This document shows, piece by piece, positions 6,401 to 39,900 of a DNA stretch of 64,000 nt. The notes under the pieces are model-generated. The model did no database searches. It saw nothing but the letters and a program-made list of their open reading frames with translations, and was not told where the DNA came from. This stretch comes from Liolophura sinensis (lineage: Eukaryota > Mollusca > Polyplacophora > Chitonida > Chitonidae). Each line of letters begins with the position of its first letter. The first letter of the stretch is position 1. The translations under genes were made by a program, and so were the position numbers. The DNA lies in assembly GCF_032854445.1 (NCBI RefSeq), contig NC_088298.1, positions 23,273,295 through 23,337,294 on the forward strand. The letters are read 5' to 3'.

Positions 6401-9400
6401 TCAACCACCGCACCTTGCCAGGTATCCTGACTGAAGGAAACAGCCCCACCACCGCACCTTGCCAGGTATCCTGACTGAAAAAATCTGCCTCACCACCGCA
6501 CCTTGCCAAGTATCCTGACTGAAGAAAACAGCCCCACCACCGTACCTTGCCAAGTATCCTGACTGAAGAAAACTGCCTCACCACTGCATCTTGCCAAGTA
6601 TCCTGACTGAAGGAAACAGCCCCACCACCGCACCTTGCCAAGTATCCTGACTGAAGGACACAGCCCCACCACCGCACCCTGCCAGGTATCCTGCTTGAAG
6701 GAAACAGCCCCTCCACCCCATCTTGAAAGGTATCCTGGTTGAAGGAAACATCGTACCTTGCCAGGCACAAAATATAGCACCATGCCAGGTATCCTGACTG
6801 AAGGAAACAGCCCAACCACCGCACCTTGCCAAATATCGTGACTGAAGGGAAGAATTCCACCACAGCAGCTTGCCAGGTGACCTTGTTGAAGGCACATTTG
6901 TCCTGACTGAAGGAAACAGCCCCATCTCCGCACTTTGCCAAGTATCCTTACTTAAGGAAACAGTTCCACCACTGCACCTTGTCAGGTATCCTGACTGAAG
7001 AAAACAACCTAACCACCGCACCTTGCCAGGTATCCTGACTGAAAGAAACAGCCCCACCACTGCAGCTTCAGAGCTATCCTGACTGAGGGAAACATCCTCA
7101 CCATCGCAGCTTTCCAGTTATCCTGACTGAAGGAAACTACCCACCCATTCGCAGACAAACCATCCAGGCTATCCAGGTATTTTCACAAGGGACCAAGCTT
7201 TCTTGCAAAAAAAAAACCCTTACCACAAAGGCACGAATGAACAAAAGACTACATAGCTAAGACCCGATTTTCTTTAAAGCGGTAAAAGTTTTCTTTTGTA
7301 TAGACAGCATAAGGCACCTAAATATAGTTACAAATACTGACCCCAGGCTTATACTTACAGGGTAGTAGTTGCCCTGGTTGTCCTTACACCCACACTTGGC
7401 CTTGGGCACACACATGTCACTGCTCATTACGAATCCTGGTTTACACTGACAGCCTTCTACACGTGGCCCGTTGCAAGCGGCTCCCGTTATACGACCGTTA
7501 CAGGTCTCTGGACACGGGTTGGCGGCTGTGGTGTAGACTTCGTTAGGACCGCAAGGTAAGGCTGTAATCAATGCAAGTTAGGTTTGGTAAGCTTTAATTT
7601 ACTCAAGGGTGGTAAAGAAATACAGGTATGGTTAGCTTTAACTTATACAGAATTGTTACGGGAAGGTGCATTTAATACTAGTGTGGTAAAGTAATCCGCA
7701 ATAAATACAGAAGTGGTAAAGTGCGATTCATTTAAATGTGGTAACGGTTTACACCGTACTGAAGAATATTTCCCTTATTCCACGGCAGGTAGCATTATGG
7801 TGGGAGGAAACCGGGCAGAGCCCAGACAAAACCTATGACCACCCACTGGTTATGACAGACCTTCCCGCCTATGGCCGGAGAGGCTGTCAAGTCAGCATAA
7901 GCTTGACTTTAAATCACAATGGTGAGAGGCAATTAATACAGATGTGATAAGATAATGTGCAATCCATACAGATGTGGTAAAATAATGTGTAATGCATACG
8001 GATGTGGTTAGATGATTTGCAATTCATACAAATGTGGTAAAATAATGAGCAATTCGTACACATGCGGTAATATAGTGTGCAATTAATACGCGGCCCCCGT
8101 GGCTCAGTCGGTTAGCGCGCTAGCGCAGCGTAATGACCCAGAAGCCTCTCACCAATGCGGTCGCTGTGAGTTCAAGTCCAGCTCATGCTGGCTTACTCTC
8201 CGGCCGTAAGTGGGAAGGTCGGCCAGCAACCTGCGGATGGTCGTGGGTTTCCCCCGGGCTGTGCCCGGTTTCCACCCACCATAATGCTGGCCGCCGTCGT
8301 ATAAGTGAAATATTCTTGAGTACGGCGTAAAACACCAATCAAAATCAAATCAAATCAAAAAGCAATTAATACAGATTAAATTTGATATGGACTTAAATGA
8401 AAAAGCGCGAGATTAAACCCTGAAAACTGTGTGGGAACTCACGGCACATATCAGCTGTCCTCCAGAAGATTTCGTAGCCGTAGTTATTGCAGACGGCGGC
8501 AAAAGCGGATAGAGAGTCGCAGACGAGTTCCTCGGTGGTGAAGCCTTTGCCTCCATCATACTGACAGATATCAGAACGGCAACTGTCGAAGTACTGCTCC
8601 ACGTCAACCACACCTGCCAGGATGCACTCTCTGAAGGGGCCGGCCGTGTCTTTGATCATACCGCACATGTCGTCACCCGTGATGGCCTGTGCTAAGGCGG
8701 CTGGGCATTCTTTGGGTGGGTCGATCGGAGGGGTACATCTGTGGAGAAAGTGAAATATGTGCGTGATCAAACCTTCCGCAAAATCAACAGTTTATGAATT
8801 ATCCATTATTATCAATTATCAAGACTATGAAGTGACACACTAAGAGAATACCCAAATTTCGGACTCATCATTTGCTTATGCAGGGAAATAGGTTCTGTAT
8901 AATGTAGAATCTAAAAGGCGAGTCTCTTTCTGAATCATACTAAGTACAAAGCGAATAAAATGTGAAACACTTTTGACTGAAACAGCTACATCTAGGCCCT
9001 TTATCTTGAAAATTTAAAGGAATTAAAGAAATATTTGCTTAATTTGATGACACTTCAATGACACTTGTCTTAACAACTTTGTCAAGACCCACACTCAATC
9101 CTCTATTGTAAGCTGATTGCTTGTAAGTTGCGTTCTTGTGAAAGAAAAGTAATATGCTTTCTTGTAAAAGAGAAGTAAGTTTCTTTCTTGTAAGTTGCTT
9201 TTTTGTAAGTTGCTTTCTTGTGAAAGAGAAGTAAATTGCTTTCTCGTGAAAAAGAAGTAAGTTGCTTTCTTGTAAGCTGTTTTCTTGTAAGTTCCTTTCT
9301 TGTGAAAGAGAAGTAAATTGCTTTCTTGTGAAAAAGAAGTAAGTTGCTTTCTTGTAAGTTGTTTTCTTGTAAGTTCTTTTCTTGTGAAAGGAAAGTAAGC

Positions 9401-12400
9401 TGCTTTCCAAATGTTAAATAGGCCTACTACCAAAACATGGTTTTCCTGACTTCACTTAAAAGATTATTATCCGCAAAGATTCAGACTGTTTTTGTTTTCC
9501 TTTATTCTTGTTCTGTTTATGCAACTACTAAGATGAAGTAATCTGTGACAGAGGAAATCGAACAACAGTTTGACCATACCCCTTGGTGATGGCGTCGGAA
9601 TCGTCGACGACGGAGTAGCTCATGCCAATTAGATTGAATCGGTTTCTGTCATTTGACACATCAGCGCCATCTTTAGTTCTGAAATCATCCTGACGACCAT
9701 TGCAGTTACCACAGATACCTTGGAGAAGGTTGCCAAGGTGACTTGGCACGTTGACAACAACCTTTCCGTAACCGTCAAACATGACGGTGATACCACAGTC
9801 GGTGTCGACTTGAACGTTGTTACCATTGAAGAAGACTCGCATCTTGCCACCGGCCAGCTCGATAGGAAGGTATTTTGTGCGGCCGTTGATCTGTCAGGTT
9901 AACAGAATGGCTTAATTAATCCAAAATAATATCAAGTAATCAATGTGATTTTTTACGAGCTATGTGATTTTGCCATAATCAAAATCTGGTGTATATTTCC
10001 TTTGCTAATGTTTGTGTTTCGAGGGATTTTATATTTTTCTGTTTTCATAATCTAAGATTTTAAACTGAAAATGGTATAACACCATAGACCCACAAGTTTG
10101 AATGTTGATTCGTTTTTGTGGTTCACCTAAAATTGCCAGAAAGATGTACTACATCTTCACTGTAAATTTCCATGACATGATGGTGCTTACCAAAATAGCA
10201 TCTAATAATCGATGATCGTGCGATTTGTTTTGGTTTACAGGCTGTGTGCCTTTACCATTATAACCGAAACTCCGCGTATATTTTCTGTATTTATGATTTT
10301 TTGTGTCATGCTTTTTTGGATTTATTCTGAAGCAAAACTAAATCTTATTGTCCACATTCTTTGTGTTTAGATAGAACTGAATAACGACATAAAACTTGAA
10401 AACTAACAAAACAGCATTAACCAATCACAATGGTCCTCTTATCAACCTTACCTGAACACGGCGTCCACTAAGGATTCTGACTTTCTGTCCGTAGATGGCA
10501 AAGTCCACCATTCTTGTCCAGGCTACGTTCCAGTTCCAACCACGACGTTCGTTCTTGACCTCAACGCTGAACCAGCACTCATTGGCCCTCTGGGTCAACT
10601 CACTCAGGGTGTACATGCAGACGCCCATGAAGTCAATTCTCTGTCCATCAAACAGGTAGTAATGGGGGTCCCCACTTCCGGTACAGGTACAGCGATCTGG
10701 AAAGGGGCAAAAGTTCTTATTGGTTGAAATAAAGACCATTATCATTACAGTGTAATTTAACTTATCGTAACGATATTTGAATCTAACCTGATGTAGTTTA
10801 GATTGCATTGATAAACATTGATATCTTTTAGCTGTATTCCACTTAGGAACCATTACTGAATTTAAATTGGTTTATTTTTCAGAGTTTTAATTATATTTGT
10901 CGTACGAAGTTAACCATTTCATTTATCCATTTAGCGATTTGTCGCCACCTTTGATTTTAAAATATTTTAAGAACTGACTTGGCACCACACAAAGAGGTAA
11001 ATACCCCTGTGAGGAGCGCCTATGCATGCATTCCAGAAGAGACCTTTCCTAACGACACCCTATCATTTCAATTGTTTAAGGTGACTGTTATGTTCGCGTA
11101 AAAAATGAAATGGAGTTCATTCATAGCGTACGAGACTGGAAAACGCCCTCTTGAAAGCTGATGTTTTTTCTGTCATAGCGATTGGATTACTCATTGGTTT
11201 ATCGATCAGTTCACCTTTCAGATTGATACAGGATTTGATGCCATCCCCAGCGTATCCCTGTTTACACACACACGTGTGTTCTCCATTTTGAACTCCGCAC
11301 GTGGCGTCTTTGTGACACGTGATGCCACTCTGGATCTTCTTCAGAACACTTTTGCCGCCGACGAACTTGCACTGGAACACCTCGCCACAGTTTTCTGTCC
11401 TCTTCTCGGATCCCATCTGAGAAAGTAATGAAATATTGACATTAAATAACACGAAGCAAAGTTACTCAGCACTGGTGACAATGCATGACTTGTAAAAAAT
11501 ATATGGGGGCCTCCGTGGCTCAGTTGTTTAGCGCGTTACTGCAGCGTAATGACCTAGGAATCTCTCACTAATGCGGTCGCTTTGAGTTCAAGTCCAGCTC
11601 ATGCTGGCTTAATCTCCGGCTATATGTGGGAAAGCCTGCAGCAACCTGCGGATGGTCGTGGGTTGTGCCCGGTTTCCACCCACCATAGTGAAATATTCTT
11701 GAGTACGACGTAAAACACCAATCAAATAAATAAATAAAGAATATCACAATTACTGTAACTTACACCAAAGACTTTAAATTTTTTACTTGCTAATGCCTTG
11801 CTCAGCAATGAAAGGTTACTGCAAAGGGAATAGGACTGGTTGGCCCGGTGTCAGTATAATGTGTCTGGGTGGGGTATCATGTCTGATGTCTTTGACTTGA
11901 TACTTCAATGGCGGCAGTACTTTGGGGGCATGGACAGGCCCTGCTACAAGAAGACACAATATATGTGCACACAATGACTCCTCCATGTCGTATGACTAAA
12001 AAAATGTTAAGTACGACGTTAAACCCCAAGCATACATACACACTCTTACACATATTGAATATTTTGATATTGAACTTTTGTGGGTGCTTCAAAATGACTT
12101 TCAACACTTTCACTTTACCTCTGCCAATACCATTAACTTAGCTGAAGAACATAGAAGCAACCTTTTTCAACTAGGCCTTCAAAACGGTTTATTTAATTAT
12201 TAGACTGAGATTTTCATGCCGCGTGCCACGCAGGACAATAGTCAGGGTTTATAGTTTGAGGGAATATTGAATAGATGGGCGGAAACCACCGCCTCTGGCC
12301 AGGTACCTGACAAACCCCTTGACGTAGGGCTGTTGCTAACCTGCCTGGTGTGGACACCATGATCTTATAGAGAAGACCCTCGTATCAGCAAAGAAAGCAA

Positions 12401-15400
12401 CACATAATGTTCTGTACTTTGTTGACCGTGGGAATATGGTGAAGACTAGGAACTGGGGGTGAACACTTACTTGTGATAATTTTAGACAGTTTCGTGTTTA
12501 GTTGCTAAAGCCGGTAGTCCCACTTGAGGCTTAGCATCTTACAAAAATACACGGTTTGCTTTCTCCAACCCGAAATAATATACAGCAGTTTCGTTGAAGC
12601 CAATACAGTTGTGTTGTATATCAGACCGATCGGTGGATTAGTACACGCCTAATATCCCAAACACCAACCAACACCAACCAAGAATTCGTGTCAACGCAGA
12701 CTACTATGGGAATACATAGAATCCTGTGGTAACTTACGGGATAGTAATCGCCATTGTTGTCCACACATCCACATTCAGACTTCTTTACGCATGCGTTTCC
12801 ACTCCTCACAAATCCGCTTTTGCACACACATCCCTCTGATGGGGGATCGACACAGTTGCTGACGTCGTCATTCACACACGTGGCTTCACACCCGGGCGCT
12901 TGGAATTTGTACTCTTCGTTAGCACCACATGTCATGGCTGAAAAGGGAAAGATATTTTATATTCTAACACTATCTGCAATTCGTTATTGTCCAAGGCCTC
13001 CCTAGGCTCGCTTACTAAAATGTGTAAACTACGTAACTTTGAACTCTTTGCGTTTAAGTAGCATTACCACTGATGTAAACTAGTTTAACTAAAGTCTAAA
13101 TATTGCTTGTTCTTCAGCGCCGTTTTATTAGCTTACACAAGGTTTACCACAGTTTTTCCTTTGCAAAACACACCTAAGTTTGAGGGCCTCTAAATAAAGT
13201 TGGGGGGTCTCTGTGGCTTAGTTGATTAGCGCGCTAGCGCAGCGTAATGATCCAGAAGCCTCTCACCAATGCGGTCTCCGGCCGTACGTGGGAAAGTTTG
13301 CCTTCAACCTGCGCATGGACGTGAGTTACCCACGGGCTGAGCCCGGTTTCCTCCCGCCATAAGTGAAATATTCTTGAGTACCGCGTAAAACACCAATCAA
13401 ATAAATAAATAAATAAAATTTGTATCCAGTTTACTGAGTTTTTTTCCGTGAAGTGCGGAGTCTGTTTTACAATGTTATCTCAGTCCGGTTTCCTCCCACC
13501 ATAATACTGGAGGCCGTTGTATAAGTGAAATATTCTTGAGTTCGGCGTAAAACATCAGTTCATCAAATAAATAAATCAACTATGTTTCATTCAGTATACA
13601 ATGGCTGTCAGAATGTCATAACCCTTGTTGTTATTGTCATAATTAAGAATTGTCCATCAACTCTGGTTAGATTGTTAAAAGCGACAAATGGTTCCCTTAC
13701 GGCAGAAAGTTGGCTGTCTCCAGTCGATCAGAATGCCCTTATTGGCGCAGTCCTTAGCGGCGGACTCCAGGGATTCACAGATAGTCTTCTCCTCCAAGGC
13801 TGACTGGTAGTTGGCACAAAGGTCCATCTTACAGCTCTGCATATAACCGTCCATGTCGACCAGATTGCTCTTGATACAGTCCGCGAAGGATCCACCCTGG
13901 TTCTTGAGGAGGCCGCAGTACTGAGGAGAGTCCTGGAACAGAGTCATCTGCTGGGCGGTGCACACTGGGAACGGTGGAACCCTTTTGCATCTAAAACAGA
14001 AAACCGTATGTCATTGGTTTTGTGTGACATTGTATGATTAACTGCTTGGTTTGAGATTGGAACTGGCTTATTTCAGATAAAAATTGGCAAAATTGTGATT
14101 TGGACTGGGGGATTTTGAACTTGGGACTGGATCTGTCTACATTGAGAATGGGTCTGACTGATTAGAGATTAGGCTAAAGTGGGATTAGATCAGTCTGATT
14201 TGAGATAGAAACTGGTTAAAGTCAGATTAGATCTGCTTGGTTGAGATTGGATCAGGCTGGGTTGAGATTGGATCAGGCTTAGTTGAGATTGGATCAGGCT
14301 TAGTTGAGATTGGATCAGGCTTGGTTAAGATTGGATTTGGCTGTGTTGAGATTGGATATGGCTGTGTTGAGATTGGATTTGGCTGAGTTGAGATTGATAT
14401 GGCTGGGTTGAGATTGATATGGCTGGGTTGAGATTGGATTTGGCTGGGTTGAGAATGGATCAGGCTTGGTTGAGATTGGATTTGGCTGGGTTGAGATTGG
14501 ATATGGCTGGGTTGAGAATGGATCAGGCTTGGTTGAGATTGGATCAGGTTTGGTTGAGATTGGATATGGCTGGGTTGAGATTGGATCAGGCTTGGTTGAG
14601 ATTGGATTTGGCTGGGTTGAGAATGGATATGGCTGGGTTGATATTGGATAAGGCTGGGTTGAGATTGGATTTGGCTGGGTTGAGATTGGATCAGGATTGG
14701 TTGAGATTGGATTTGGCTGGGTTGAGATTGGATATGGCTGGGTTGAGAATGGATCAGGCTTGGTTGAAATTGGATCAGGTTTGGTTGAGATTGGATATGG
14801 CTGGGTTGAGATTGGATCAGGCTTGGTTGAGATTGGATTTGGCTGGGTTGAGATTGGATTTGGCTGGGTTGAGAATGGATATGGCTGGGTTGATATTGGA
14901 TAAGGCTGGGTTGAGATTGGATTTGGCTGGGTTGAGATTGGATCAGGATTGGTTGAGATTGGATTTGGCTGGGTTGAGATTGGATTTGGCTGGGTTGAGA
15001 ATGGATATGGCTGGGTTGAGATTGGATTTGGCTGGGTTGAGATTGGATTTGGCTGGGTTGAGATTGGATCAGGCTTGATTGAGATTGGACTTGGCTGGGT
15101 TGAGATTGGATTTGGCTGGGTTGAGAATGGATATGGCTGGGTTGAGATTGGATCAGGCTTGGTTGAGATTAAATTTGGCTTGGTTGAGATTGGATCAGGC
15201 TGGGTTGAGATTGGATTTGGCTGTGTTGAGATTGGATCTAGCTGGATTGATATTGGATATGGCTTGGTTGAGATTGGATGTGGTTGGATTAAGATTGGAT
15301 CTAGCTGAATTCAGATTGAATTTAGTTGAATTGAGACCGGATCTGACTGGATTGAGATTAAGATTGAGATTGGAGCTTGCTAAAGCGGGATTAGATGAGT

Positions 15401-18400
15401 CTGATTTGAGATAGAAACTGGTTAAAGTCAGATTGGACCTTCCTGGATTGAAATTGGATCAGGTTGGGTTGAGATTGGATACGACTGGGTTAAGATTGTA
15501 TGTGGCTGGATTAAGATTGGATCTAGATGAATTGAAATTGGATATGGCTGAGCTGAGATTGGATCTGGATGGATTAGTGTTGAAACAAGTGAAATTTGGA
15601 TTGATCTGGTTAAATTGGAACACTTCGTAAGCCAAATGTTTGTCACTTTATTCTGGTATTAGTATGTCCGTGGTATTGCTATATCTACCTAGAACAAAGC
15701 TGTTACCTTATCAGTTGAGCAGAAGTGTGCCTTAAAATACTGATCAATTTATACTGGGAAGTAGCCACTGGTATTACATTAACATCCGCAGAAACGACGG
15801 CCTTTGCTATATCTTTATGAGATTACTAAAGATTTTTCAGTGTGTTGGATAATTAACATTATCCATCCATAAAAAAAATGTCATTTCATCAAAAAAGATT
15901 CTTATACGACTTTTTTTACTCCACAAATATATCCATAGAATCATTGTATCAACTTACTGGAAAAGTGTCCTCAAAATGATTGCATAAACCTAATAGAAAA
16001 ATATCCTAATGGAAAAATATTCTCAGAATGATGGAATCAACCTAATGGAAAAGTATCCTCACAATTATTGTATCATCCTAATGGATGAATATCCTCATAA
16101 TTATTGTATCAGCCTAATAGAAAAATATCCTCAGAATTATTGCACCATCCTAATGGAAAAACAATATCTCAGAATTATTGTACCATCCTAATGGAAAAAC
16201 AATATCTCAGAAACATTGTATCAGCCTAATGGAAAAACAATATCTCAGAATTATTGTACCATCCTAATGGAAAAACAATATCTCAGAAACATTGTATCAG
16301 CCTAATGGAAATACAATATCTCAGAAATATTGTACCATCCTAATGGAAAAACAATATCTCAGAATTATTGTATCAGCCTAATAGAAAAATATCTTCAGAA
16401 TTATTGTACCATCCTAGTGGAAAAACAATATCTCAGAAACATTGTATCAGCCTAGTGCAAAAGTGTCCTCAGAATTATTGTATCAGCCTCATGAAAAAAT
16501 ATCCTCAGAATTATTGTACCATCTTCATGGAAAAACAATATCTCAGAATTATTGTACCATCCTAATGGAAAAACAATATCTCAGAATTATTATACCATCC
16601 TAATGGAAAAACAATATCTCAGAATTATTGTACCATCCTAATGGAAAAACAATATCTCAGAATTATTGTATCAGCCTAGTACAAAAGTCTCCTCAGAGCC
16701 CCTGTATAACCCTAATGGAAAAATATACTACAAAACTAGTACATAATGTAAAAGTATCCTCAGAATGATTGCACAAAAGTGCCCTCAGACGGATTATATC
16801 GACTTGATGGAAAAGTAGCCTTAGAATTATTTATTTATTTATTTGATTGCTATTCAAATAAGAATATTTCAAGAATATTTATCTTATATGACGGGGCCAG
16901 CACTTATGGTGGGTGGAAACCGGGCAGAGCCCGGTGGAAACCCACGAATCCGCAATTTCATTAGAATTATTGTATCAACCATGCCAAAAAGTTGCCTCAG
17001 AATGATTGCAACAACCTAATAGAAAAGTAGCCTCAGAATTATTGTATCAATGTACTGCAAAAGTAGCCTTAGAATGATTGTATCAATTTACTGCAAAAAT
17101 AGTCTCAGATTGATTGCATCGACTTAATGGTAAAGTAGCCTCAGAGTGATTGTATCAAATTTACTGGAAAAGTAGCCTCAAAGTGATTGTATCAACTTAC
17201 TGGAAAAGTAGCCTCAGAATGATTGTGTCAACTTACTGGAAATGTGGCTGATCCGAGTCATCGGGTACTCTGTAGCTGTTTCCAATCAGGTTATACTTGT
17301 TGCCATTGCGGGCGACGTTGACGCCCTCTAGGGTCATGAAGTCGTCTTTAGAGTTGCCGTTACAGGAACCACATATTCCGTTCATTTTGTTGGCGCCCCA
17401 TTGCTTTGGTATTTTGACGGTAACCACGTGGTTTCCGTCGAACATGATTTCGGCTCCACAGACTGTTTTAACCACAACGTTGTTTCCGCTGCGAGTGATG
17501 GCGACGCCATTAGTCAAGGTGACCGGTAAGAATTTCTCCATCTTGTTTATCTGAAGGTTGAGGGAAAACTCTTAACGTTAAACTGATAAAAAAATTTAAA
17601 ACTACCGTTGGTCAGTACAATTACAAGTTTAGAGTTAAGGGTTTTTGTCCCTTATTTATCAAAGCATTCCACGATGGGTGGTCCAGAGAAGCGACAACAG
17701 TGTGATAGACGTGCAGCATGGAGTGTAAAACCAGAGAAGCGACGACAGTGTGATAGAAGTACAGTATACAGAGTAAAACCAGAGAAGCGACAACAGTGTG
17801 ATAGAAGTACAGTATACAGAGTAAAACCAGAGAAGCGACAACAGTGTGATAGAAGTACAGTATACAGAGTAAAACCAGAGAAGCGACAACAGTGTGATAG
17901 AAGTACAGTATACAGAGTAAAACCAGAGAAGCGACAACAGTGTGATAGACGTGCAGCATGGAGAGTAAAACCAGAGAAGCGACGACAGTGTGATAGAAGT
18001 ACAGTATACAGAGTAAAACCAGAGAAGCGACAACAGTGTGATAGAAGTACAGTATACAGAGTAAAACCAGAGAAGCGACAACAGTCTGATAGAAAATAAC
18101 ATACAATCACATCAAAACAATTCAAAGTGACCTGACCATGGGGGTGCTTAGCCCACCAGCAGAATGCCGGTTTATGAAAGAATACAATATAAATATAAAA
18201 GACCTAAAACACCTGATTTTGTGTTTGTAAGTTGGACACTACGAACAATCTTTTAGGATTGGTCAAAACAAGTTGTCTTGATTGACAGGTTGGCATTTAT
18301 CAATACTTACGAAGACACGACGTCCTTGGTGAAGACGAATGACGTAATTCTGGATTTTGACGTCAACCAGTCGTGTGTAGGCGACCTTCTTGTTGAAGCC

Positions 18401-25950: not shown

Positions 25951-26961
25951 ACCAGCAACCTGCGGATGGTCGTGGGTTTCCGCCAGGCTCTGCCCGCTTC
26001 CTCCCACCCGTGCTGGCCCCGTCATATAAGTGAAATATTCTTGAAATATTCTTATTTGAATAGCAATCAAATAAATAAATAAATAAATTATTCTAAGGCT
26101 ACTTTTCCATCAAGTCGATATAATCAGTCTGAGGGCACTTTTGTGCAATCATTCTGAGGATACTTTTACATTATGTACTATGATTTGTAGTATATTTTTC
26201 CATTAGGTTTATACAATGGCTCTGAGGAGACTTTTGTACTAGGCTGATACAATAATTCTGAGACATTGTTTTTCCATTAGGATGGTGCAATAATTCTGAG
26301 ATATTGTTTTTCCATTAGGATGGTACAATAATTCTCAGGTATTGTTTTTCCATTAGGATGGTGCAATAATTCTGAGATATTGTTTTTCCATTAGGATGGT
26401 ACAATAATTCTGAGATATTGTTTTTCCATTAGGATGGTACAATAATTCTGAGATATTGTTTTTCCATTAGGATGGTACAATAATTCTGAGATATTGTTTT
26501 TCCATTAGGATGGTACAATAATTCTGAGGATATTTTTTCATGAGGCTGATACAATGACTCTGAGGACACTTTTGCACGAGGCTGATACAATAATTCTGAG
26601 ATATTGTTTTTCCATTAGGATGGTACAATAATTCTGAGGATATTTTTCTATTAGGCTGATACAATATTTCTGAAATATTGTTTTTCCATTAGGATGGTAC
26701 AATAATTCTGAGGATATTTTTCTATTAGGCTGATACAATATTTCTGAAATATTGTTTTTCCATTAGGATGGTACAATAATTCTGAGGATATTTTTCTATT
26801 AGGCTGATACAATGCTTCTGAGATATTGTTTTTCCATTAGGATGGTACAATAATTCTGAGGATATTTTTCCATTAGGATGGTACAATATTTATGAAATAT
26901 TGTTTTTCCATTAGGATGGTACCATAGGCATGAAACACCAATCAAATAAATAAATAAATAA
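25951..26961 (+). mobile_element. Retroposed SINE plus 36-38-bp array unit
   Basis: A 5'-truncated SINE (25951-26085), then about 840 bp of the copy L intron-5 array in inverted orientation, then a SINE-type tail ending AATAAATAAATAAATA. Near-identical 12-bp repeats flank it: TATTCAACATAA (25939-25950) and TATTCAATATAA (26962-26973). The pre-insertion sequence is visible in the intact MITE at 22504. Confidence 0.75.
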
Positions 26962-36900: not shown

Positions 36901-39900
36901 TGATTTAACAAAAAATTGTAATTAATGTTTGATGACTTCTGCATACTGGGTTGTTTCTGTCGTAGCTCCCAAGCGCTTGGCAATATGAATATAAGCGTCA
37001 TGTCCGACATTCATATACCATTCGTAGTCCGTAAATGGCGTTCCAAGTCGATAATCGCAAGATCCATTTCCAAAACAACGTTTAACACTAGCTCCCAAAG
37101 ACAAAGGTATGTAGGAAATTATACAGATAGGAAATAAAGCCGGTAACACCCAAGAGGGAAGCGGTCGTCAGTTTTCAATGATGCCGGGCAGACAGTTGAT
37201 ATTCCAGGCATGAAGAACCACGAGTCCATCTAACATATAACGTCTTTTGTTTCTTTTTACGTCTAAAAATCAAACTACAAAATTTAAAACTACTACTGTT
37301 TGATTATAGTTAATTTTTTTTTACAGAAACGCAAATAGTTCATCTCATGATAAAATGTGAAGGATTTTACAAAAACAATATATGTTCTTCCAGTTATTAA
37401 ATTTCACAAATTTTACAGAAACAAAAACTGTTCTTTGCCTAATGAAAATTGAAACATATTTTACAGAACCCCCAAAACGTCGTTCCCATTACGAAATTTG
37501 AGAGTCAGATTTTTCAGATACAAAGATGTTCTTCTTAGGCATGACGCATCAAATCGGAATTAAAAACGAGAAAGTCAAATAAATTCAAACTTATAACCGG
37601 GCTTTAACGCATGTACTTGGCATCAGACATCCCCTTGATTTCCCATAACAGACAGTGTTAAGGTTTAATGCTGTAACTCAGCCCCCCACGGCTATATCTT
37701 TTGACACTAGCACTGATAAGTTATGATTTTATTGATATCTGTCGGGTGGTCCGAGGAATTACGTGTATACATGGATATGTGTGGTGGTATTCTTCAGCAT
37801 TTTTCCTTGTCTTGGTCATATACGTGTCTGTGAAATATCCTTAAGCTCGGGATATATGTATGTGCTTATTTGTTGCGTACGCGACAGTTCTCGACATGCG
37901 TTTTGGATATCGTAATGCCCCGAGTGATCCGCCGCCCTTCTCTACGTAGCTACCAAACCTCTTTATGCTAAAGGGTGGATGAAATAGTAACTTCGATTCA
38001 AACAGGCTAACTCGTGGATCAAAGGCATACCACCCCCAGCGATAAGCTAGCGTGAACGCTAATCAAGCATAGCCGAAAAACGGCACTTAAATGAGGAACG
38101 AAAATCCTGGTTATACGATTTTTTCATTTCAACCTTCAGGTAAACAAGATAGAGAAATTTTTACCGGTCACCTTGGCTAATGGCGTCGCCATCACTCGCA
38201 GCGGAAACAACGTTGTGGTTAAAACTGTCTGTGGAGCCGAAATCATGTTCGACGGAAACCACGTGGTTACCGTCAAAATACCAAAACAATGGGGCGCCAA
38301 TAATATGAATGGAATATGTGGATCCTGTAACGGCAACTCCAAAGATGACTTCATGACCCTAGAGGGCGTCAACGTCGCCAACAACGGCAACAAGTATAAC
38401 CTGATTGGGAACAGCTACAGTGTACCCGATGACTCGGATCAGCCACATTTCCAGTAAGTTGACATAATCATTCTCAGGCTACTTTTGCAGTAAATTGATA
38501 CAATCACTAATGCTACTTTTCCAGTAAGTTGATACAATCACTAATGCTACTTTTCCAGTAAATTGATACAATCACCAAGGCTACTTTTCCAGTAAGTTGA
38601 TATAATCATTCTGAGGCTACTTTTCCAGTAAGTTCATACAATCTTTCTGTGGGTACATTTTCCGTAAGTTGATACAATTATTCAAGGAGCATATTGGTAG
38701 AGAGTTATGATGTCGTATCACAGCCTAAATAAACCCCACTAAATCATTTTCAATAAAGTAACACCAGAATTTTATTTCAGACAGATGTTAATGTAATACG
38801 TGGGACTCATTTCCTGTATTAACTAGTCAGTACCTTAAGGGACATTCTGATCTGTTGATAAAGAAATATGCGCAGGGTTTTCAGTTGACAAAGTAATGTC
38901 ACGGACACATTTCGCAGTAGGTGGTAAAGTAATATTCCTTTCACATTAAAAGTGTCCCAATCCAACCAGTTCCAACCCCTGTCTATCCAGTTCCAATCTC
39001 AAATCAGCCGGATTTAATCCTAGATCAGCCAGTTCCTTTCCCAGTTCAGCCATATCGTATCCCTAGTCAGCTAGTTCCTATCTCAAATCAGCCAGTTTCA
39101 TTCTCAATTGAGCCAGATCATATCCCTAGTCAGCCACTTCCTATCCCAATTTAGCTAGTGACAATCTCAATTTAGCTAATTCCATTCTGAAATTTGCAAT
39201 GTCAATTCAACCGCTCAAAACAAAACAAAAAAAAAAATCCCCTAAAACCAACAATGACATCCCTGGTTTTTCCGCCAGCTGCAAACAGGTTCCACCGTTC
39301 CCAGTGTGCACCGCCCAGCAGATGACTCTGTTCCAGGACTCTCCTCAGTACTGCGGCCTCCTCAAGAACCAGGGTGGGTCCTTCGGGGACTGTATCAAGA
39401 GCAATCTGGTCGACATGGACGGTTATATACAGAGCTGTAAGATGGACCTTTGTGCCAACTACCAGTCAGCCTTGGAGGAGAAGACTATCTGTGAATCCCT
39501 GGAGTCCGCTGCTAAAGACTGCGCCAACAAGGGCATTCTGATCGACTGGAGACAGCCAGCTTTCTGCCGTAAGGGAGCCAGTTGCCGTCTAATTGCAGTT
39601 TTTAATTATGATAATAATACGAAATACAAAAGATTCTATCCGACTCTAACCATTTCATAAACGTGGCAGCCATAGTATATTGGTGATATATATACGCTTG
39701 AGTAAGAAGAAAGACACGAACAAATAATTATAATATTAGCATTCTGATCAACTAGAGACAACCAGTTGTCTGTCGCCATTGAACCATTCTCCCTCCATCC
39801 TATATAGTAGCGTTTATGCTAGCGCGCATCACGGTGCCAAACCCACAAACCCTTACCACCTCACCCCACACCTACCTTCCCTCCATCCTATATAATAACA

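Follow-up and report, generated by a model that had tools for sequence, protein, structure and literature searches.

Minisatellite-like duplications lying over exon-intron boundaries have been described as 'mirages' in amphioxus, where they occur in Adh3, the globin genes BflGb6 and BflGb9, troponin C and PGBD5 (PMC3087553, PMC3902484). The Adh3 units measure 10-72 bp (PMC3087553), splicing is reported to be undisturbed in the accessible parts of both accounts (PMC3087553, PMC3902484), and the units at the edges of an amphioxus mirage are said to escape homogenisation. In human IFI6, a minisatellite carries several donor sites (Turri et al. 1995, as described in citing papers), and the available portion of a later paper reports that downstream repeat units are used as donors. 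Tandem repeats at exon-intron boundaries have also been described in human segmental duplications, together with novel introns and alternative splicing (PMC2812944, accessible sections), and in the model of intron gain by tandem duplication, as far as its available text goes, splice signals are multiplied (PMC4974935). A search that covered mainly literature outside subscription journals found no mollusc report of boundary repeats; in the accessible text of a paper on cone snail gene structure, minisatellites are mentioned in one reference title only (PMC3862624).

Here we describe a boundary minisatellite in the chiton Liolophura sinensis, located in a 64,000-nt stretch of contig NC_088298.1 (positions 23,273,295 to 23,337,294, forward strand; hereafter the window, in which coordinates are given). 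Like the units of amphioxus mirages, its tandem units span the exon-intron boundary and repeat splice signals, and in one gene copy, copy L, the first and last units keep GTAAGT whereas most inner units do not. The chiton array differs from the mirages in occurring in a mollusc, in being anchored on the 5' splice site and in having been inherited via gene duplication, with donor loss traceable between paralogs. Boundary repeats in recent paralogs are common to the human segmental duplications and the chiton copies, but the accessible sections on the former also report alternative splicing and the appearance of novel introns (PMC2812944). Tandem duplication multiplies splice signals in the chiton array just as in the available description of intron gain (PMC4974935), but the chiton intron appears older than its array.

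Results

The array resides in a gene with repeated VWD-C8-TIL-type modules, of which copies R (forward strand) and L (reverse strand) lie within the window and copy T about 65 kb beyond it. Pfam matches to VWD and C8 flank the array-bearing intron, and the remaining modules are presumably TIL and EGF domains. In copy R, the second exon of the first VWD domain (VWD1; 38140-38453, forward strand, 314 nt, Pfam VWD E 1.2e-10) is conserved in copies L and T and ends in ...CAT TTC CA, in phase 2. The intron that follows (38454-39278, forward strand, 825 nt), delimited from sequence and reading frame, carries the array at its 5' end, is in phase 2 on both sides and has the inferred acceptor ccgccag|CTGC. 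The next exon, with inferred ends at 39279-39568 (forward strand), matches the Pfam C8 domain over most of its length (E 3.3e-14). Near the 3' end of the VWD1 intron, all three copies contain a second array of 21-bp units (39017-39176 and 14224-15576 of the window, and 6319-7441 of L023), which exceeds 1 kb in L and T.

According to the original prediction, this intron begins at the splice junction itself with a 36-bp tandem array, in which about six units repeat GTAAGT with its exonic CCA. TRF detected an array at 38448-38687 (6.9 copies, score 296), and a wrap-around parse resolved the donor-bearing minisatellite (38454-38687, forward strand) into seven units, the last one partial, with donors at +0, +36, +70, +104, +138, +174 and +210 relative to the junction 38453|38454. 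The start at the junction was borne out in copy R and likewise in copies L and T. The tandem array is real as well, but its period is not uniform, the spacings being 36, 34, 34, 34, 36 and 36 nt. Unit 1 holds the inferred true donor GTAAGT (38454-38459), which would place an in-frame TAA at 38455-38457 if retained. GTAAGT is found again in units 3 (+70, 38524-38529), 5 (+138, 38592-38597) and 6 (+174, 38628-38633) and, as CC|GTAAGT, in the partial unit 7 (+210, 38664-38669), whereas units 2 (+36, 38490-38495) and 4 (+104, 38558-38563) carry the weak GTAAAT, all on the forward strand. GTAAGT is therefore present in five of the seven units, namely the true donor and four of the six downstream ones; of the predicted row, the two GTAAAT units drop out, and the last unit has CC without the A.

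We asked how the recurrence of the junction sequence compares with chance. Fourteen donors were picked by eye in copy R and sought in the three copies (39 of 42 located), and the segment from -12 to +24 at each donor was compared with its best ungapped downstream match within 400 nt, using 200 shuffles each. The VWD1 segment recurs downstream at 32/36 positions in copy R and at 31/36 in copy L. For T, where indels interrupt the ungapped match, the value of 22/36 does not exceed the maximum of its own shuffles (22). The remaining 36 donors recur at 19/36 or less, save C8-1 in R at 22/36 (shuffle maximum 21), and the top value across all 39 sets of 200 shuffles was 23. Similarity on the exon side of the splice site, which had also been proposed, is evident from the last 12 exon bases, of which 9 (R), 10 (L) and 9 (T) match the next unit, a level equalled by 3, 2 and 3 of 20,000 random draws, respectively. 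This exon-side match and the 36-nt period together point to duplication of a segment containing about 12 exon bases and about 24 intron bases. Duplication across the junction, the origin originally suggested, is thus the most likely one, the array being anchored there in all three paralogous copies.

Copies R, L and T all start their arrays at the same junction with the first donor GTAAGTTGAC. The lengths range from about 234 nt in R through 0.45 kb in T to 1.3 kb in L, where the array (15919-17236, reverse strand) directly follows the paralogous VWD1 exon (17237-17550, reverse strand). Downstream GTAAGT sites number four in R, two in L and none in T. Among the 38 rows parsed in copy L, some of which represent an insert, GTAAGT occurs in three (+0, +36 and +1279) and GTAAAT at +72 and +145, while 15 rows start with TTAGG; the array is interrupted near 16838-16955 by a SINE-like insert, placed by eye. 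The 13 units parsed in copy T reach +454; the first has GTAAGT, the one at +34 GTAAAT, seven start with TTAGG, and no downstream unit has GTAAGT. Since L and T have the distal flank of the array in common, and 34-nt units occur in both R and T, the array predates the gene copies. As judged from these sequences, its donors were mostly lost or replaced in L and T, as neutral turnover would predict, and the absence of most extra donors from the paralogs argues against selection for a backup role. In our view, this boundary minisatellite probably arose by tandem duplication over an old junction, with the first donor in use and the copies largely neutral by-products.

At up to two mismatches, 13 of 14 genome-wide sites of the unit core lie inside the VWD gene cluster. 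A dispersed repeat family was considered but finds no support, the 45 matches at up to three mismatches being barely more than the 39 in the reversed control. The inner part of the L array has a secondary, inverted counterpart at 25961-26926 (forward strand), located between the two genes and bounded by SINE-like tails, which adjoins no exon identified and shares 88% identity with the copy L intron. It begins at the SINE that also lies inside the L array and therefore reads as a later copy, which may have been transduced by the SINE. An outgroup array away from the junction had been named as evidence against an origin there; this copy does lie apart from a junction, but as an apparent later derivative it cannot stand in for an outgroup sequence.

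Donors were scored with a weight matrix built from 36 other donors of these genes and by pairing to the 5' end of the genome's own U1. U1 snRNA has 41 matches genome-wide, one of them below cut-off, and its genes are clustered in tandem on C10 at about 30.03-30.14 Mb with a spacing of about 2 kb. In copy R, the true donor and the four GTAAGT decoys score alike on both of these crude measures, at 10.2 bits in the matrix and -5.6 to -5.7 kcal/mol for U1, and GTAAAT pairs at -1.9 as compared to -5.6 kcal/mol for GTAAGT. GTAAGT had been predicted to be a strong donor. The small weight matrix agrees, placing the true donor of copy R at or above 24 of the 36 other donors, but U1 pairing does not, as by this measure it equals or beats only 4 of the 36 other family donors. 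Given such low calculated pairing and four decoys with equal scores, use of decoy donors to some degree is plausible. Consensus positions are kept at 40 of 42 sites in the donor hexamers of copy R as compared to 171 of 194 in the rest of the units; by this sequence measure the hexamers are kept no worse than their surroundings, leaving room for a role of the donors specific to copy R. RNA folding of the copy R array (38430-38700) revealed no structure. The RNA is in fact unusually unfolded, with 200 of 200 shuffles folding at least as well (z 3.05), and the predicted openness would leave the decoy donors accessible to U1.

The reading frame determines what a downstream donor would yield. Retention of the first donor gives CAG TAA, a glutamine followed by a stop, and every one of the 19 downstream offsets that were translated (6 in copy R, 7 in copy L and 6 in copy T) runs into a stop at the second codon of the extension; two of the six in copy R, +70 and +104, additionally shift the frame. 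It follows that any phase-2 intron starting with GTAAGT has the same immediate stop on donor retention. With phase 2 and GTAAGT combined, downstream donors therefore add an in-frame TAA and not 12-residue blocks. The idea of backup donors, each adding a multiple of 36 nt, is not supported in that form, because the stop would truncate the protein, and additive 36-nt protein inserts are ruled out by the in-frame stop together with the 34-nt units. In IFI6, the alternative donors reportedly keep the reading frame open, whereas the chiton frame closes at codon 2; downstream donors are reported to be used in the available literature on IFI6, whereas in the chiton their use would truncate the protein.

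A stop so close to the junction could itself be of use. In such unproductive splicing, the share of transcripts spliced at downstream donors would gain the TAA and be degraded, and array length would tune the amount of full-length protein made from copy R. We regard this as unlikely. The four decoys of copy R score like the true donor, the in-frame stop is immediate, the array RNA is unfolded and IFI6 is said, in the accessible text, to use downstream repeat units as donors, all of which would suit such a switch; the donors are, however, mostly not conserved in L and T, and the amphioxus boundary repeats are reported, in the parts available, without disturbance of splicing (PMC3087553, PMC3902484).

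Two further alternatives were considered. In copy R, the introns after VWD2 (GG|GTATGT) and VWD3 (AA|GTGAGT) are also in phase 2 and, by inspection, at an apparently homologous position. Their donors show no recurrence within 400 nt in the three copies (at most 19/36), TRF found no array at the junction in the VWD2 stretch of copy T, and the array in the VWD2 intron of copy L (9106-9407) is unrelated and starts some 170 nt into the intron. No array was seen at the junctions of the VWD2 and VWD3 introns, which suggests, on sequence grounds, that junction and intron are older than the array. Gain of the intron itself through the array's tandem duplication is accordingly very improbable, even though the duplicated exon end with its GT, together with the TTTTCCAG stretch present in most units, resembles what that model requires according to its accessible text (PMC4974935). 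We rejected it in view of the same-phase introns after VWD2 and VWD3, at apparently homologous positions and free of a junction array, and the 3' part of the intron moreover consists of other sequence with a different array. Recursive splicing, in which each unit would act as a ratchet point removing the intron stepwise, is the least probable of all and was rejected too: acceptor-like TTTTCCAG does lie directly over donor-like GTAAGT in the units, but the two parts have a single G in common (CAGTAAGT), whereas a regenerating donor requires AG and then GT, and the intron measures just 825 nt.

We extended the analysis to the whole genome with a pattern of three CAGGTAAGT spaced 8-38 nt. This strict pattern gave 237 matches as compared to 93 in the reversed control, overlapping matches within arrays not being independent; a loose pattern of tandem GTAAGT showed no genome-wide excess (2653 matches vs 5821 in the reversed control). 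Fourteen arrays were taken among the matches listed (C1, C2 and part of C3), with further flanks for 10; picked by donor motif, this sample shows the recurrence of arrays and not their frequency. Six of the 14 begin at an open-frame exon, belonging to SMAD2/3, GH31, diacylglycerol kinase, a DERA-like gene and two unnamed open frames (L030 and L033).

In SMAD2/3 (L038, L045; C2, about 22305825-22306684), identified by a best PDB match of E 8.7e-28, a 31-bp donor-bearing array occupies the intron start, and the true donor is followed by 11 exact CAGGTAAGT. The exon after the array was found, its MH2 match being sub-cut-off (E 0.0019), and the five exon bases contained in the unit are not distinct from chance. 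In GH31 (L031, L041; C1 from 26353437), the exon (Pfam 5e-13) and the next exon (Pfam 1.7e-21) enclose an intron with a 39-bp array whose unit includes 32 exon bases, 27 of them matching, and the true donor (GTATGT) looks inferior to those downstream (GTAAGT). Parts of this array can be read as open frames of 13-residue units. In diacylglycerol kinase (L039, L047; C3, about 23271050-23275728; exon Pfam 3.5e-10), the intron starts with a 44-bp array whose unit combines 37 exon bases, 36 of them matching, with 7 intron bases, and the 3.9 kb of intron read contain 84 exact CAGGTAAGT (CAG|GTAAGT). The array gene at L032 is, judging by its sequence, probably DERA; NCBIfam gave a single match, below cut-off (E 0.002), searching the genome with Pfam DeoC produced no match, and the array unit includes 21 exon bases with 16 matching. 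Of the unnamed open frames, L030 shares 32 bases with its unit (31 matching) and L033 35 (34 matching); neither peptide has a Pfam or NCBIfam match, and L033 has a weak PDB match (E 0.34).

The other eight arrays gave no clear boundary case. By eye, on three-frame translations, no edge exon was seen at L026, L027, L029, L034, L035 or L036, the L027 and L034 peptides have no Pfam match, and the same holds for the exon next to the array of L028, an ambiguous case. L037, which begins close to an open frame, was dropped as a boundary case, because only two exon bases match.

Discussion

The chiton array is a real, inherited boundary minisatellite, and lancelets and one human gene already provide examples of the phenomenon as such. 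We infer the use of the first donor, the neutrality of the others and the order of events. On the preferred reading of tandem duplication over an old junction, a segment of about 36 nt, comprising about 12 exon and about 24 intron bases, would have been duplicated before the gene was copied, and the array would then have grown on the intron side alone, because selection holds the coding exon. The first donor would be the one used, and kept by selection, and the downstream donors would be products of repeat turnover, subject to drift and decay. To judge from the sequence comparison, these spare donors are probably unused; occasional use of one would put TAA after CAG, giving either a protein that ends at the first VWD domain or an mRNA that is degraded.

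Beyond the single locus, it is the recurrence in unrelated chiton genes that makes the finding of interest. We tentatively propose, as a possibility that we would not yet put ahead of its negation, that exon-intron junctions of this chiton repeatedly give rise to minisatellites, so that long rows of near-identical strong donors may stand at the start of dozens of introns, the first donor of each row still being chosen. How one donor is selected from several near-identical ones is an unsolved question in splicing. In SMAD2/3 and diacylglycerol kinase, a real exon end stands beside dozens of identical copies, and the choice of donor should be readable from the public RNA-seq of the species. The VWD paralogs, for their part, illustrate the inheritance of boundary repeats and the loss of their donors. 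If the proposal is true, boundary repeats would be general beyond lancelets, and the chiton genes would provide a natural experiment in 5' splice-site choice where the neighbouring sites are identical.
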